From: Chitinophagaceae bacterium
Lineage (GTDB): Bacteria > Bacteroidota > Bacteroidia > Chitinophagales > Chitinophagaceae
Assembly: GCA_003455235.1 (NCBI GenBank)
Contig: DMRT01000119.1
Coordinates: 1 to 10,651 of the forward strand
DNA: 10,651 nucleotides
Direction: 5' to 3'
The notes below the pieces were generated by a model. It was not told where the DNA came from. It worked only from the letters and a program-made list of their open reading frames with translations, and made no database searches. This document shows, in pieces, positions 2,562 through 9,626 of this stretch (positions are counted from its first letter, which is position 1; every line of letters starts with the position of its first letter). Position numbers and translations under genes: made by a program.

Positions 2562-3767
2562 TTATTCCTTCACAAAGGCTGCCGTAAACATCGAATCAGC
2601 CCTTTTATTATAACCTTTTAATAATTCCATCTGCAGCAACCGCAGGTGGAATTTTTCTTTTAGAAAGTTCGCCACTTCTTCATTTTCCTGCCTGAATACC
2701 GAACAGGTGATGTAAATGAACATGCCGTTTGCTGAAAGATGGGGGATCACATTGGAAACGATCTGCTTTTGTTTATCAGCATATTCTTTGATCATTTCCT
2801 TCTTAAAAAAGTAAAGTTGCTCGGGGGTGCGGCTCCAGGTACCGCTGCCGGTGCAGGGGGCGTCGCAGATGATGAGATCAAAGTTTGTCCTTCGGCTACG
2901 CTCAGGATATGTTTGTGGTTGAAGGTTTGTGGCTGGAGGCTTGCGGCTGGAGGTTTGCAAATCAGCGATAAAGGAATGGTAGTTCTTGATACCTGCAGCA
3001 TTGAATCTTTTTTTAAGATTGGCTAAAATGCTTTCCCGGATATCAGAAACGGTTAGGCTGATCTTTCCATCAAGTATGTCGTAGGCCAGCAGGGATTTAC
3101 CTCCACTGGCGGCGCAGCAATCCCAGACGGATACAGGTTGTGGATTACCGGCGGCGGGATGTTTGAGAACATTAAGCACCTGCTGGGAATGGTAATCCTG
3201 TACCATGGCTTCCTTATCCGGATCAATGATCCCATCCAGCTTTGTTGCATTCGGCAAGGCAATACAATCATCGGCCGGAGTTTGAAAGGCAATGCCCGCT
3301 TCGCTGAGTTTTTTCAATACGATTTCATTTTTTCCGGGCCTTACCCGCAGGAACAGGTCCGGTTGCCGGAGAAAAGAAAGGCAAAAAGAATCGGGATCAG
3401 TCCCATCACTTAATTCAGTCAGCCATGGAAAGATATTATGTGGATCAATGCCAAGAAGGCGGAGTTTTTCTGAAACCGCTTTCTCAACCCATTCATTCCA
3501 TTCCGGTTTATGAAACCGGAGGAACTCACTGGACTGTTGCTCACAAAGAAATGCGGCACTCATTATTCTTTCTTCTGCAGGAACTGTACGCATGGCATGT
3601 CCCAGCCGGTAATAATAATAGCAGAGTGATGCAATATACTTTCTGTCTTTAGAGCCGTATTTTTTATCCGAGGCAAATTTTTTTTTCAGGAACCCCGGCA
3701 ACGGTTCTTTCCCATCGTAGGCTTCGATGATTTTTACAGCCGAATTAAGATAGGAGTGCTGGCGCAT
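2562..3767 (-). CDS. rsmB: RsmB/NOP family 16S rRNA (cytosine-C5) methyltransferase
   Basis: Predicted cytoplasmic SAM-dependent methyltransferase of the Fmu/Sun/NOP2 family, which transfers a methyl group to C5 of a cytosine in rRNA (C967 of 16S rRNA for E. coli RsmB). The 401-residue protein has an N-terminal RNA-binding region (about 1-130) and a Rossmann methyltransferase domain from about residue 180. Visible motifs are the SAM loop WDCCAASGGKS (215-225), acidic SDIRE (241-245), motif IV CDAPCTGSGTW with Cys305, and motif VI TCS with Cys355, matching the two conserved cysteines of the family (motif VI Cys is the nucleophile in RsmB). Residues 270-294, just before motif IV, are encoded by repeat DNA and form an odd basic, Pro/Gln-rich insertion ending PERSRR; the frame stays open, so the gene is probably functional. 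A family member acting on another rRNA position cannot be excluded. The ATG lies only 4 bases from a -7 promoter box, which suggests a nearly leaderless mRNA. Confidence 0.88.
   Translation of the reverse strand: MRQHSYLNSAVKIIEAYDGKEPLPGFLKKKFASDKKYGSKDRKYIASLCYYYYRLGHAMRTVPAEERIMSAAFLCEQQSSEFLRFHKPEWNEWVEKAVSEKLRLLGIDPHNIFPWLTELSDGTDPDSFCLSFLRQPDLFLRVRPGKNEIVLKKLSEAGIAFQTPADDCIALPNATKLDGIIDPDKEAMVQDYHSQQVLNVLKHPAAGNPQPVSVWDCCAASGGKSLLAYDILDGKISLTVSDIRESILANLKKRFNAAGIKNYHSFIADLQTSSRKPPATNLQPQTYPERSRRTNFDLIICDAPCTGSGTWSRTPEQLYFFKKEMIKEYADKQKQIVSNVIPHLSANGMFIYITCSVFRQENEEVANFLKEKFHLRLLQMELLKGYNKRADSMFTAAFVKE
2888..2907. repeat. 20-bp interspersed element inside rsmB (PERSRR-encoding)
   Basis: The sequence is TCCTTCGGCTACGCTCAGGA, with complementary ends (TCCT/AGGA). 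Read on the rsmB coding strand it gives part of the peptide PERSRR (about residues 288-293). From memory, near-identical 20-mers recur as short interspersed elements in many environmental bacterial genomes, Bacteroidota included; the copy number in this genome cannot be seen here. It lies 3 bases from the heptad repeat at 2911-2959, and the two together fill one in-frame insertion. Confidence 0.6.
2911..2959. repeat. Seven tandem 7-bp units inside rsmB
   Basis: Forty-nine bases divide cleanly into seven 7-mers with plus-strand consensus GYTKGNG (for example GTTTGTG, GCTGGAG, GCTTGCG). Units tend to alternate in type, giving a 14-bp superperiod. Positions 1 and 3 are invariant G and T; positions 5 and 7 each have one exception. 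Seven is not a multiple of three, so the peptide period is 7 residues per 21 bases. It encodes about residues 270-286 of RsmB, directly before motif IV. The same unit family occurs in odhB at 4773-4800. Confidence 0.75.
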
Positions 3768-3886: not shown

Positions 3887-5104
3887 CTATAGTTCCAGCA
3901 AACTCTTCACCGGGTCTTTACCGAACAACAACAGTTCAGGGTTCTCCAGCAATTCTTTCACCCGTACAAGGAAGCTTACCGATTCTCTGCCGTCGATGAT
4001 GCGGTGATCGTAACTCAATGCCACATACATCATGGGTTTGATAACCACCTGCCCGTTTACGGCCATCGGTCTTTCCACGATATTGTGCATTCCCAGTATC
4101 GCCGATTGTGGTATATTAATGATGGGTGTGCTCATCATAGAACCGAATACACCGCCATTGGTGATGGTGAAGGTTCCGCCGGTCATTTCTTCAATGGTGA
4201 GTTTATTTTCTTTTGCCTTACCGGCCAGCTCTACCACTTTTGCTTCGATGCCTGCCATGCTAAGGCTTTCGGCATTGCGTATCACCGGCACCACCAGGCC
4301 CTTGGGCGCACTAACGGCAATGGAGATGTCGCAGTAATCGTGGTAAACAATGCTTTCGCCGTCGATATAGGCATTTACGGCCGGCCATTCCATCAACGCA
4401 TAGGTACATGCTTTGGTAAAAAAGCTCATAAAGCCGAGGTTAACACCGTGTATCTCTTTGAATTTATCCTTGTATTTTTTTCGGATCTCCATGATGGGGC
4501 TCATGTCCACCTCATTGAAGGTGGTGAGCATGGCTGTGGTATTCTTGGCTTCCACCAGGCGGCGGCTGATCGTTTTGCGCAGGTTGCTCATTTTCTCCAC
4601 CCGGTCGTTGCGTTCAAATAACACCGTACCTGGTCTCAGTCCTGGGTTGTTCAATGCGTCCATCACGTCCTGCTTCACAATCTTTCCATTGCTGCCGGAG
4701 GGAGTTACCACTTTTACGTCTACCTTTTTATCAGCGATGATGGCAGCGGCAACGGGGGTTGCTTTAAGATCTGTTTGAGGTTTGAGGCTTGAAGCTTGAG
4801 GTTGCGCCGCAGGAGTTTCTTTTACCGTTGCTGGTTTTTCTGCCTTTACGGTTTCGGCTGGTTTGGCTGCATCTGTGTCGATGGAGCAAACAACGTCGCC
4901 TATATTGAGTGTATCTCCTTCTTTGGCAATGGTTTTAATAGCACCTGCCTGCTCGGCGTTCAGTTCAAAAGTGGCTTTTTCACTTTCCAGTTCGGCAATC
5001 ACTTCATCCCTGTTCACCCAATCCCCGTCTTTTTTATGCCATTTCACCAACGTCACTTCATTGATGCTTTCACCTACAGTGGGAACTTTTATTTCAATTG
5101 CCAT
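3887..5104 (-). CDS. odhB: 2-oxoglutarate dehydrogenase E2 component (dihydrolipoyllysine succinyltransferase)
   Basis: This protein forms the core of the 2-oxoglutarate dehydrogenase complex of the TCA cycle and moves the succinyl group from lipoamide to coenzyme A in the cytoplasm. The 405-residue protein has one lipoyl domain (1-75, with lipoylated Lys43 in [11 protein letters not shown]), an Ala/Pro/Lys-rich linker (about 78-112), a peripheral subunit-binding domain (about 113-150) and a catalytic domain to the end, with the active-site motif [11 protein letters not shown] (His367, Asp371). The length matches the family. Residues 102-111 of the linker ([10 protein letters not shown]) come from the 7-bp repeat at 4773-4800. 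The gene for the E1 partner (odhA/sucA), often adjacent in other bacteria, is not beside it: neighbours are rpoD upstream and rsmB downstream. The sequence [11 protein letters not shown] and the GGVFGS motif favour succinyltransferase over acetyltransferase, though I cannot prove the acyl group from sequence alone. Confidence 0.93.
4773..4800. repeat. Four tandem 7-bp units inside odhB
   Basis: Four consecutive 7-mers follow plus-strand consensus GYTTGAR (GTTTGAG twice, GCTTGAA, GCTTGAG). This is the same unit family as in rsmB at 2911-2959. It encodes residues 102-111 in the flexible linker between lipoyl and subunit-binding domains, where extra residues should be tolerated. Confidence 0.7.
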
Positions 5105-8864: not shown

Positions 8865-9626
8865 ATGGCAACGAAGAAAACAACCAACCGCAGGGAATTC
8901 ATTTCCACATCACTGAAAGGAGGTTTGGCCATCGGCGTTGGACTGGGCGCCACGGCTCCTCTCCTCCAGTCATTTTCTACCGCAGACCAGCATACATATT
9001 CCGGCTTTCAAACCGGCTTCGATCAGCAGCCATTGCCCTATAAATATGATGCACTGGAAAACGTAATTGATGCGATGACCATGGAGATCCACTACAGCAA
9101 ACATGCAGCGGCTTATGCCAAGAACGTGAAAGAGGCCGCCGGGGCTGAAAAGGTGGACATTACCAAACCGCTGGAAGAAGTACTTGCAAAAATCTCTTCC
9201 TACTCCGCCAAAATGCGGAATAACGGCGGTGGCCACTATAACCACGAACTCTTCTGGCAATGCATGCAGCCAAAAAAAGAAGGCAATACCCCTTCCGGAT
9301 CTTTGCAGCAATCCATTACCCAGGCTTTCGGATCGTTCGATGAATTCAAAAAACAATTTACCGATGCAGGCAAAAACCGGTTCGGCAGCGGTTGGGCCTG
9401 GCTGTATGTTGATAAAGACAAAAAACTGAAGATCGGCTCCACCCCCAACCAGGATAACCCGCTAATGGACATCAGTGATGTAAAAGGATTTCCTTTGCTC
9501 GGACTGGATGTTTGGGAACACGCCTATTATTTAAAGTACCAGAACAAAAGAGCAGATTACATCGATAACTGGTGGAACGTGGTGAACTGGAATTATGTGC
9601 AGCAGCGGTTTGATAAAATGAGTTAA
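8865..9626 (+). CDS. Superoxide dismutase (Fe/Mn family) with Tat signal peptide
   Basis: Converts superoxide to hydrogen peroxide and oxygen. The 253-residue protein begins with a twin-arginine signal (NRREFIST, Arg9-Arg10, then a hydrophobic stretch about 19-34), so it should be exported folded, with its metal, to the periplasm. The mature Fe/Mn SOD domain starts about residue 55 (LPYKYDALE). Metal ligands by alignment to E. coli SodA are His76, His127, Asp215 and His219, with gateway residues His80 and Tyr84. Gly123 and Gln196 (in TPNQDNPL) place the active-site glutamine where manganese enzymes have it, favouring Mn or cambialistic use; this is inference. Spacing of 12 bases suggests co-transcription with the LptF/G permease upstream. 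Cytosolic SODs of the family are about 200 residues; the extra 50 are the export signal and linker. Confidence 0.93.
   Translation: MATKKTTNRREFISTSLKGGLAIGVGLGATAPLLQSFSTADQHTYSGFQTGFDQQPLPYKYDALENVIDAMTMEIHYSKHAAAYAKNVKEAAGAEKVDITKPLEEVLAKISSYSAKMRNNGGGHYNHELFWQCMQPKKEGNTPSGSLQQSITQAFGSFDEFKKQFTDAGKNRFGSGWAWLYVDKDKKLKIGSTPNQDNPLMDISDVKGFPLLGLDVWEHAYYLKYQNKRADYIDNWWNVVNWNYVQQRFDKMS

Follow-up and report, generated by a model that had tools for sequence, protein, structure and literature searches.

In a Chitinophagaceae genome, the loop that precedes the conserved motif IV of an RsmB-like rRNA methyltransferase is filled, in frame, with tandem heptanucleotides and a 21-bp element, and heptamer arrays are also found in many other core enzymes of this genome. 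With a probability of roughly 0.6, we read this as a permissive loop filled by repeat, in which heptamer arrays would arise by slippage in 7-nt steps, spread within genomes and be kept where the reading frame, the strand and a disordered loop allow it. Tolerance of the repeat is supported by the data, while its domestication is not. The window, that is, the whole stretch of DNA analysed (10,651 bp), is one contig (C261) of a genome assembly of 2.62 Mb that is 68% complete and consists of 346 contigs. The features of the window are collected in Table 1.

Table 1. Location of the RsmB-like gene, the parts of its repeat and a second heptamer array in the window
Feature	Position	Strand	Basis or remark
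RsmB-like m5C rRNA methyltransferase gene	2562..3767	-	open frame over 401 aa
Motif IV, CDAPCTGSGTW, residues 301-311, first conserved stretch past the loop	2835..2867	-	invariant alignment columns
Eighth heptamer, CAAACTT, downstream of the 21-bp block	2881..2887	-	common to relative L035
21-bp block, coding strand ATCCTGAGCGTAGCCGAAGGA, encoding YPERSRR with flanking bases	2888..2908	-	holds the interspersed 18-mer at 2889-2906
Seven heptanucleotides, coding strand CAAACCT CCAGCCG CAAGCCT CCAGCCA CAAACCT TCAACCA CAAACAT	2909..2957	-	TRF, codon shuffle
A further in-frame array of heptamers, within the linker of 2-oxoglutarate dehydrogenase E2 (sucB, 3887-5104), encoding 10 residues	4773..4801	-	codon-shuffle p 0.0002 at lag 7

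On the coding strand the order in the loop is, 5’ to 3’, the seven heptamers, ATCCTGAGCGTAGCCGAAGGA and CAAACTT, together encoding residues 271-296. The preliminary description of this DNA, made from its letters alone, had placed a composite repeat in frame at residues 270-294, between the SAM-binding part and motif IV. This is borne out: the repeat resolves into seven 7-bp units, a 21-bp block with the 18-mer and an eighth unit, the residue numbers are correct (they correspond to 2886-2960), the segment is indeed flanked by the SAM-site strand and motif IV, and the frame stays open over all 401 codons. The heptamers of the array alternate, which results in a 14-bp period. TRF scores the array at 66 with period 14 and at 32 with period 7, and its identity is 0.59-0.60 at lag 7 and 0.82-0.83 at lag 14. 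When the codons of the array were shuffled, p was 0.0006 at lag 7 and 0.0002 at lag 14. The head-to-tail 7-bp units are beyond chance, and the array is a heptameric simple sequence repeat. If the 21-mer is included and the full 84-nt loop considered, the lag-7 identity drops to 0.40, yet it still exceeds that of every window of the same length elsewhere in the gene; the codon-shuffle p of this full loop was not below 0.01. None of the 25 longest of 59 inverted pairs lies within the 77-bp segment; one pair, I25, touches the segment, and its other arm is 5.9 kb away.

We call the predicted 401-aa protein RsmB-like on three grounds. It matches the RsmB/F domain (PF01189 of Pfam, 80.2 bits against a cut-off of 27), it has Cys305 and Cys355, and the nearest solved folds of its AlphaFold2 model in a Foldseek search are those of E. 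coli Fmu/RsmB (1sqg and 1sqf). Its scores with the NCBIfam equivalog models for RsmB remain under their cut-offs (98.8 bits against 269.05 and 98.7 against 375). Cys305 and Cys355, which we take to be the catalytic cysteines of the RsmB/F type, are invariant in an alignment of 40 rows. Homologues that carry an organism name are mostly from Chitinophagaceae, for example Ferruginibacter. The model used is the best of five (mean pLDDT 84.7; the other four range from 61.7 to 82.5) and has strands at residues 264-267 and 296-302. Its pLDDT falls below 50 at residues 277-292, and also at 306-310 inside motif IV. The segment encoded by the repeat is predicted to be disordered, and the enzyme probably functions normally, with no sign of its loss.

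The stretch corresponding to residues 265-297, 33 residues long here, was compared in 29 orthologues from related genomes. In 22 of them it has 19 residues; three others have 20 or 21, and the remaining four have 31. The more distant orthologues mostly have a shorter loop devoid of repeats, so that the result named in the preliminary description as evidence for an ordinary family loop was not obtained. A conserved insertion shared by the whole family is rejected, since most of the 29 carry the shorter 19-residue loop. The four 31-residue loops (L038, L039, L041 and L045) have no 7-nt periodicity; they are not heptamer expansions and represent a separate expansion. The tree partner of the RsmB-like protein, L035 (SH-aLRT 92, 66% identity), has a loop of 19 residues spelled CAAACCT CAAACCC GAAACCT CAAACCT CAAACTT, without the 21-mer. 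This suggests that the heptamers were probably already present at the ordinary length, and that the lineage of the window then added three heptamers and the 21-mer (42 bp, 14 residues). The segment had been described as an extra insertion. The loop is indeed longer than the usual 19 residues, but the net gain is 14 residues rather than 25, and the heptamer part is no one-off, as L035 carries heptamers at 19 residues and 16 of 80 orthologues from named records show heptamer periodicity here in other sequences.

Among 120 listed of 7730 RsmB homologues, own cluster included, the loop has 19 aa in 75, 26 aa in 14, 25 aa in 14, 18 aa in five, 33 aa in two and other lengths in 10. In the best 80 of at least 571 confirmed loci in public records, mostly titled as Chitinophagaceae or Bacteroidetes bins, it spans 17 to 40 aa; 43 of these 80 have 19 residues and 16 pass the periodicity test. 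In a phylogeny computed with the loop removed, the array state switches 14 times over 103 rows, while 200 label shuffles gave a mean of 17.6 changes and only one was as low. For this count six rows from duplicate genomes were removed and the RsmB-like gene was set by hand to ‘array’, since the whole-loop test includes the 21-mer. The array state is therefore partly inherited, yet it has been gained or lost repeatedly. In L340, P0041 and P0068 the loop holds another short repeat-like segment (peptides LPAGQAS, LPTGQAG and LPDRQAG), and several kinds of repeat may land in the RsmB loop.

The initial proposal that intergenic-type repeat DNA has been domesticated here would imply that the methyltransferase owes to the segment a function under selection, such as contact with rRNA or regulation. 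The segment does adjoin motif IV and the frame is kept. However, it is predicted to be disordered (pLDDT <50 at 277-292), relatives differ strongly in its residues, its length and its repeat sequence, and like segments are found in unrelated enzymes. We see no sign of a new function and regard domestication as very improbable.

Heptamer arrays are spread over the whole of the source genome (G000). With up to two mismatches, GTTTGNG has 71 matches in it and the reversed pattern eight. The GTTTGNG matches form 41 arrays, and 40 of these are distinct, one being duplicated on two contigs. The duplicated one is the array of the PurM locus, which lies near the ends of both C183 and C299 (L086 543-564 and L092 8413-8434), an assembly redundancy. 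The intergenic character that had been ascribed to the repeat DNA is seen in 16 of the 41 arrays, which are not within an ORF of 100 aa. Eighteen of the 40 distinct arrays are in frame inside ORFs with a family match, and all 18 lie on the stop-free strand. The genes are those for PBP1C, SCO1, adenine deaminase, an RluB-type pseudouridine synthase, a SAM methyltransferase, YggS, MetG, LpxB, pyruvate dehydrogenase (PDH) E2, an FAD monooxygenase, KdtA, PurM, LipB, HolB, PheS, MurB, SucB and the RsmB-like enzyme; KdtA, PurM and HolB are named by their best match and are under their NCBIfam cut-offs. One further ORF (L076), in which the array precedes the first domain match by about 40 residues, was left out of this count, as were L083 and four ORFs without a family match (L069, L072, L079 and L094). 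Repeats of CCTCAAA read P-Q-T-S-N-L-K in any frame, while the TTTGAGG strand has TGA in every frame. Array peptides include PQTSNLKP in MetG and LQTSNFKPQTSN in LpxB. The MetG array lies between two matched regions of the best-matching solved structure. For MurB and LpxB the array coincides with a loop that is four residues shorter in the best-matching solved structure. The arrays of the pseudouridine synthase and of the SAM methyltransferase are just ahead of the matched domain.

Arrays are rarer in genes than the coding density (~0.9) predicts, which is as expected if most of them are harmful there. The contigs examined from this genome contain 52 lag-7 segments, 31 of them GTTTG-like and 21 with other units. 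GAACAAG-type arrays, which constitute another heptamer family of the same genome, are repeated near a contig end at distances of 116 and 214 bp (L066 10529-10892), with related ones in L077, L087 and L264, and TATCCGG-like units recur in L072, L076, L078, L268 and L271. MetG has a second in-frame array, of the AATTC type, about 140 residues ahead of the PQTSNLK array (L074 1986-2021; L156 1501-1526). The PDH E2 (L078) has heptamers as well as SucB, and by eye so has a 547-aa E2-like ORF of the related genome G079 (L332 15447-15521). Also by eye, some arrays were seen to come as inverted pairs with a spacing between a few and a few hundred bp (L063 2844-2937, L080 1926-2022, L296 15749-15830 and L321 5340-5865); such pairs could form stem-loops, perhaps terminator-like ones.

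The same loops carry different heptamers in different genomes. We compared the MurB, LpxB and PheS loops with that of RsmB across 30 genomes (30 RsmB, 27 MurB, 30 LpxB and 27 PheS loci). The heptamers vary between genomes in all four loops, frequently without a change of length in MurB, PheS and RsmB. The MurB loop has 14 residues in 18 of 27 loci, 10-13 or 16 in seven and 7 in two, one of which carries heptamers (G046). Its units are CAAACTC-like in the source genome and G060, AACGTTC in G082, CAACGAC in G015, CAACCAC in G021, CAACCAT in G061 and CAACTTC in G085. The PheS loop has 12 residues in 22 of 27 loci, with ACTCACC units in G043, and the LpxB loop varies freely in length, with AATTCCC-like units in G021. 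Codons were shuffled within the 99 loops of at least 36 nt, in a set where the rows are related and the four loops were picked because the source genome has arrays there. Of these loops 24 had p<0.01, or 21 of 95 when the source genome is left out; among control windows from the same genes the number was 29 of 2380.

This control bears on the possibility that we are dealing with an ordinary hypervariable family loop, in which periodicity follows from a biased amino-acid composition. The RsmB loop is certainly variable in length, as seen in the best 80 of at least 571 loci, and here it is rich in Q, T, N, P and S. The codon shuffle, however, keeps the composition, and the excess of periodic loops over control windows persists; moreover a lag of 7 is no multiple of a codon, so repeats at the protein level alone are insufficient. 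An artefact of composition is rejected by the shuffle control, and we consider the ordinary-loop explanation highly improbable.

The prevailing heptamer differs from genome to genome. At up to one mismatch GTTTGNG is found in 29 of 147 genomes, the source genome included, with 27 matches in the source genome, 20 in G060 and none in G079 or G082. Across genomes the reversed GTTTGNG pattern is not a clean control: it also matches heptamer variants like GTTTGGT, and in several genomes it is found more often than the forward pattern. Lag comparisons and codon shuffles took its place. The source genome and G060 share array loci as well as sequence. This sharing is probably due to descent, and not every shared array is a new event. 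GACTCCC-type arrays have 15 matches in G082 and none in nine other genomes; they occupy five places in G082, of which only the RsmB loop lay in an ORF. In G082 the RsmB and MurB loops carry different heptamers, which indicates that one sequence per genome is not the rule. Many matches had been expected in G079 for the variant AATTCNG, but there were three, two of them being the RsmB array on both strands.

Seven is the preferred period. In 1.35 Mb from seven genomes, made up of 20-kb samples and small contigs, 39 segments had lag 7, seven lag 8, six lag 6 and five lag 12, with at most four segments at each of the other lags from 4 to 14; the part from the source genome omitted the array-bearing contigs and is biased against arrays. 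Every one of the seven genomes had 7 as its most frequent lag, and 11 of the 39 lag-7 segments were inside ORFs.

At up to one mismatch the 18-mer of the 21-bp element is found in 15 of 147 genomes, that is, as a single copy in the source genome and in 14 of 146 others, while the control columns gave 0; a degenerate 17-mer has one further copy in the source genome at one mismatch. The intergenic character claimed for the repeat DNA also fits this element, since 15 of 28 inspected copies of the 18-mer are in no open frame of at least 100 codons; six are in frames of more than 400 codons. In G079, 18-mer copies (L138 and L140, near 1501) are inside CCCCCTCAT...CAGGGGG, a possible hairpin. The RsmB loops of P0001, P0002, P0004 and P0008 contain PERSRR, those of P0003, P0005 and P0006 contain SVAEG, and those of P0007 and P0016 contain SAAEG, a near-match to SVAEG. 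PERSRR and LSVAEG are readings of CCTGAGCGTAGCCGAAGG in neighbouring frames, and, judged by translation, the peptides in the RsmB loops of relatives fit the 21-bp element in two frames. Five further RsmB homologues have HPERGQK, a possible variant of PERSRR.

These homologues also speak to the quality of the assembly. An assembly or binning artefact might be suspected in a 68% complete metagenome bin of 346 contigs, in which the PurM locus is found on two contigs. However, the representative of the protein’s own cluster, P0001 (six members, longest contig 8765 bases), has the segment with a single change, Q285P, and P0002, P0004 and P0008, at 67-73% identity, have PERSRR in the same loop. On these grounds the artefact is rejected, and its probability is close to nil.

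Another explanation is that the heptamers and the 21-mer arrived together as a mobile unit similar to a Rickettsia palindromic element. The 21-mer is indeed found between heptamer-like units in a 445-aa ORF of G079, and there are RsmB homologues with PERSRR or LSVAEG-type peptides inside PQTSNLK-like arrays. Against joint arrival, L035 has heptamers without the 21-mer at the same place, a loose test of periodicity in the flanks was passed by only 6 of 32 distinct 18-mer copies, and homologues differ in where the 21-mer lies and in which frame it is read. We consider a mobile unit of this kind very unlikely.

The reading that we prefer, a permissive loop filled by repeat, involves three processes. 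Arrays would arise and turn over by replication slippage in 7-nt steps. A given heptamer sequence would then spread between loci of one genome by a copying process, as the shared sequence at many loci suggests. Survival inside a gene would need a stop-free coding strand (CCTCAAA giving PQTSNLK), a length change in steps of three units or of 21 bp, and a site in a disordered loop or linker. With a length of exactly three heptamers the 21-bp element too would keep the frame, and the repeat in the RsmB-like enzyme would be a tolerated passenger sequence. We infer that slippage, spread and selection together explain the facts with the least extra assumption. Not all lengths follow steps of seven residues: the RsmB loops of 25 and 18 aa (14 and 5 of the 120 listed), the seven of 27 MurB loops with 10-13 or 16 residues and the irregular LpxB loops stand against such steps.

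Slippage could also have acted locally only. In that case the arrays grew in place from chance near-repeats, and the heptamers shared between loci reflect descent and a bias to stop-free heptamers encoding polar residues, with no copying between loci. This would agree with the variety of heptamers among the loci of a single genome (G082, G021), with the CAA that by eye is common to many variants, with period 7 as the commonest lag in all seven genomes sampled, and with the over-representation of heptamers among bacterial simple repeats stated in two reports (PMC4679880, PMC4692102). It agrees poorly with the sharing of GTTTGNG by about 40 loci of the source genome when the related genomes G079 and G082 have none at up to one mismatch, against 27 matches in the source genome. 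Moreover, GACTCCC-type arrays are confined to one of ten genomes, and arrays outside genes, where there is no protein constraint, share the GTTTGNG unit too. Local slippage alone is therefore unlikely. A bolder version of the reading with spread is that an active process in Chitinophagaceae writes lineage-specific heptanucleotides at many loci. Permissive loops of essential enzymes would be overwritten time and again, often with no change in length, and sets of core proteins would as a result share a DNA-derived heptapeptide that switches between lineages. We think this possible but lean against it.

Heptameric repeats as a class are already known. The STRR heptanucleotides of heterocystous cyanobacteria are known mainly from intergenic sites and from sites of RNA genes. 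The arrays described here resemble them in being heptanucleotide tandem repeats with several sequences per genome. Rickettsia palindromic elements were reportedly described by Ogata et al. in 2000 and 2002. According to a later review, they are units of ~150 bp that encode a conserved peptide and are inserted in frame in unrelated genes (PMC10969869). The likeness is that repeat DNA is in frame inside unrelated metabolic genes and is translated; unlike the ~150-bp palindromic units, the repeats here are of 7 bp and 21 bp and the RsmB-like segment is 77 bp. A Rickettsia-type element is rejected, since the in-frame position is shared but a palindromic unit of ~150 bp is not found.

Among the nearest known systems are also the TAACTGA direct repeats of Beggiatoaceae, Cyanobacteria and some Bacteroidetes. 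In the report on them, one orientation has stops in all frames and the other reads the heptapeptide LSVISYQ, the arrays are mostly intergenic with many just ahead of start codons, and some are in ORFs, mostly at protein ends (PMC4679880). The two systems are alike in having dispersed heptanucleotide arrays with one stop-rich orientation and another that encodes one heptapeptide, and some arrays in ORFs. Here, however, the units are CAAACCT-like and not TAACTGA. Further, in contrast to the mostly intergenic arrangement given in that report, 18 of 40 arrays are in genes with a family match, several of them inside conserved domains, with 16 of 41 outside ORFs of 100 aa, and relatives have different heptamers in one and the same loop. 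The heptamers GGGAATC and GGGGA(C/T)T of Xanthomonas and Nostoc are described as G-quadruplex formers over-represented in non-coding DNA (PMC4692102). They are similar to the present arrays as genome-wide heptameric simple repeats that vary in length and sequence between close relatives, but they differ in that the unit here is GTTTGAG-like and many arrays are in genes. More generally, these two sources state that simple repeats are suppressed in the middle of genes and that heptamers are over-represented, mostly outside genes (PMC4679880, PMC4692102). In the titles and abstract openings of the open-access literature searched we found no in-frame heptamers in housekeeping genes of Bacteroidota, and no match to the combination of in-gene arrays with recurrence at the same loop in changing sequence.

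A simple repeat with a unit other than a multiple of three should be purged from the interior of a gene, yet many core enzymes contain such repeats here. The likely reasons are legible in the sequence: one strand is stop-free in all frames, three units make whole codons, and the sites are loops or linkers. A single loop that bears different heptamers in different lineages provides a natural series for the origin, spread and sequence change of a repeat, and heptamer loops show new protein sequence originating at the DNA level. Caution is also called for, as similarity between the linkers of proteins from such a genome can be due to repeat DNA and not to homology. Elsewhere in the window, an ORF at 8865-9626 resembles by eye an Fe/Mn superoxide dismutase and has an N-terminal leader with NRREFISTSLKGG, a twin-arginine-like signal.
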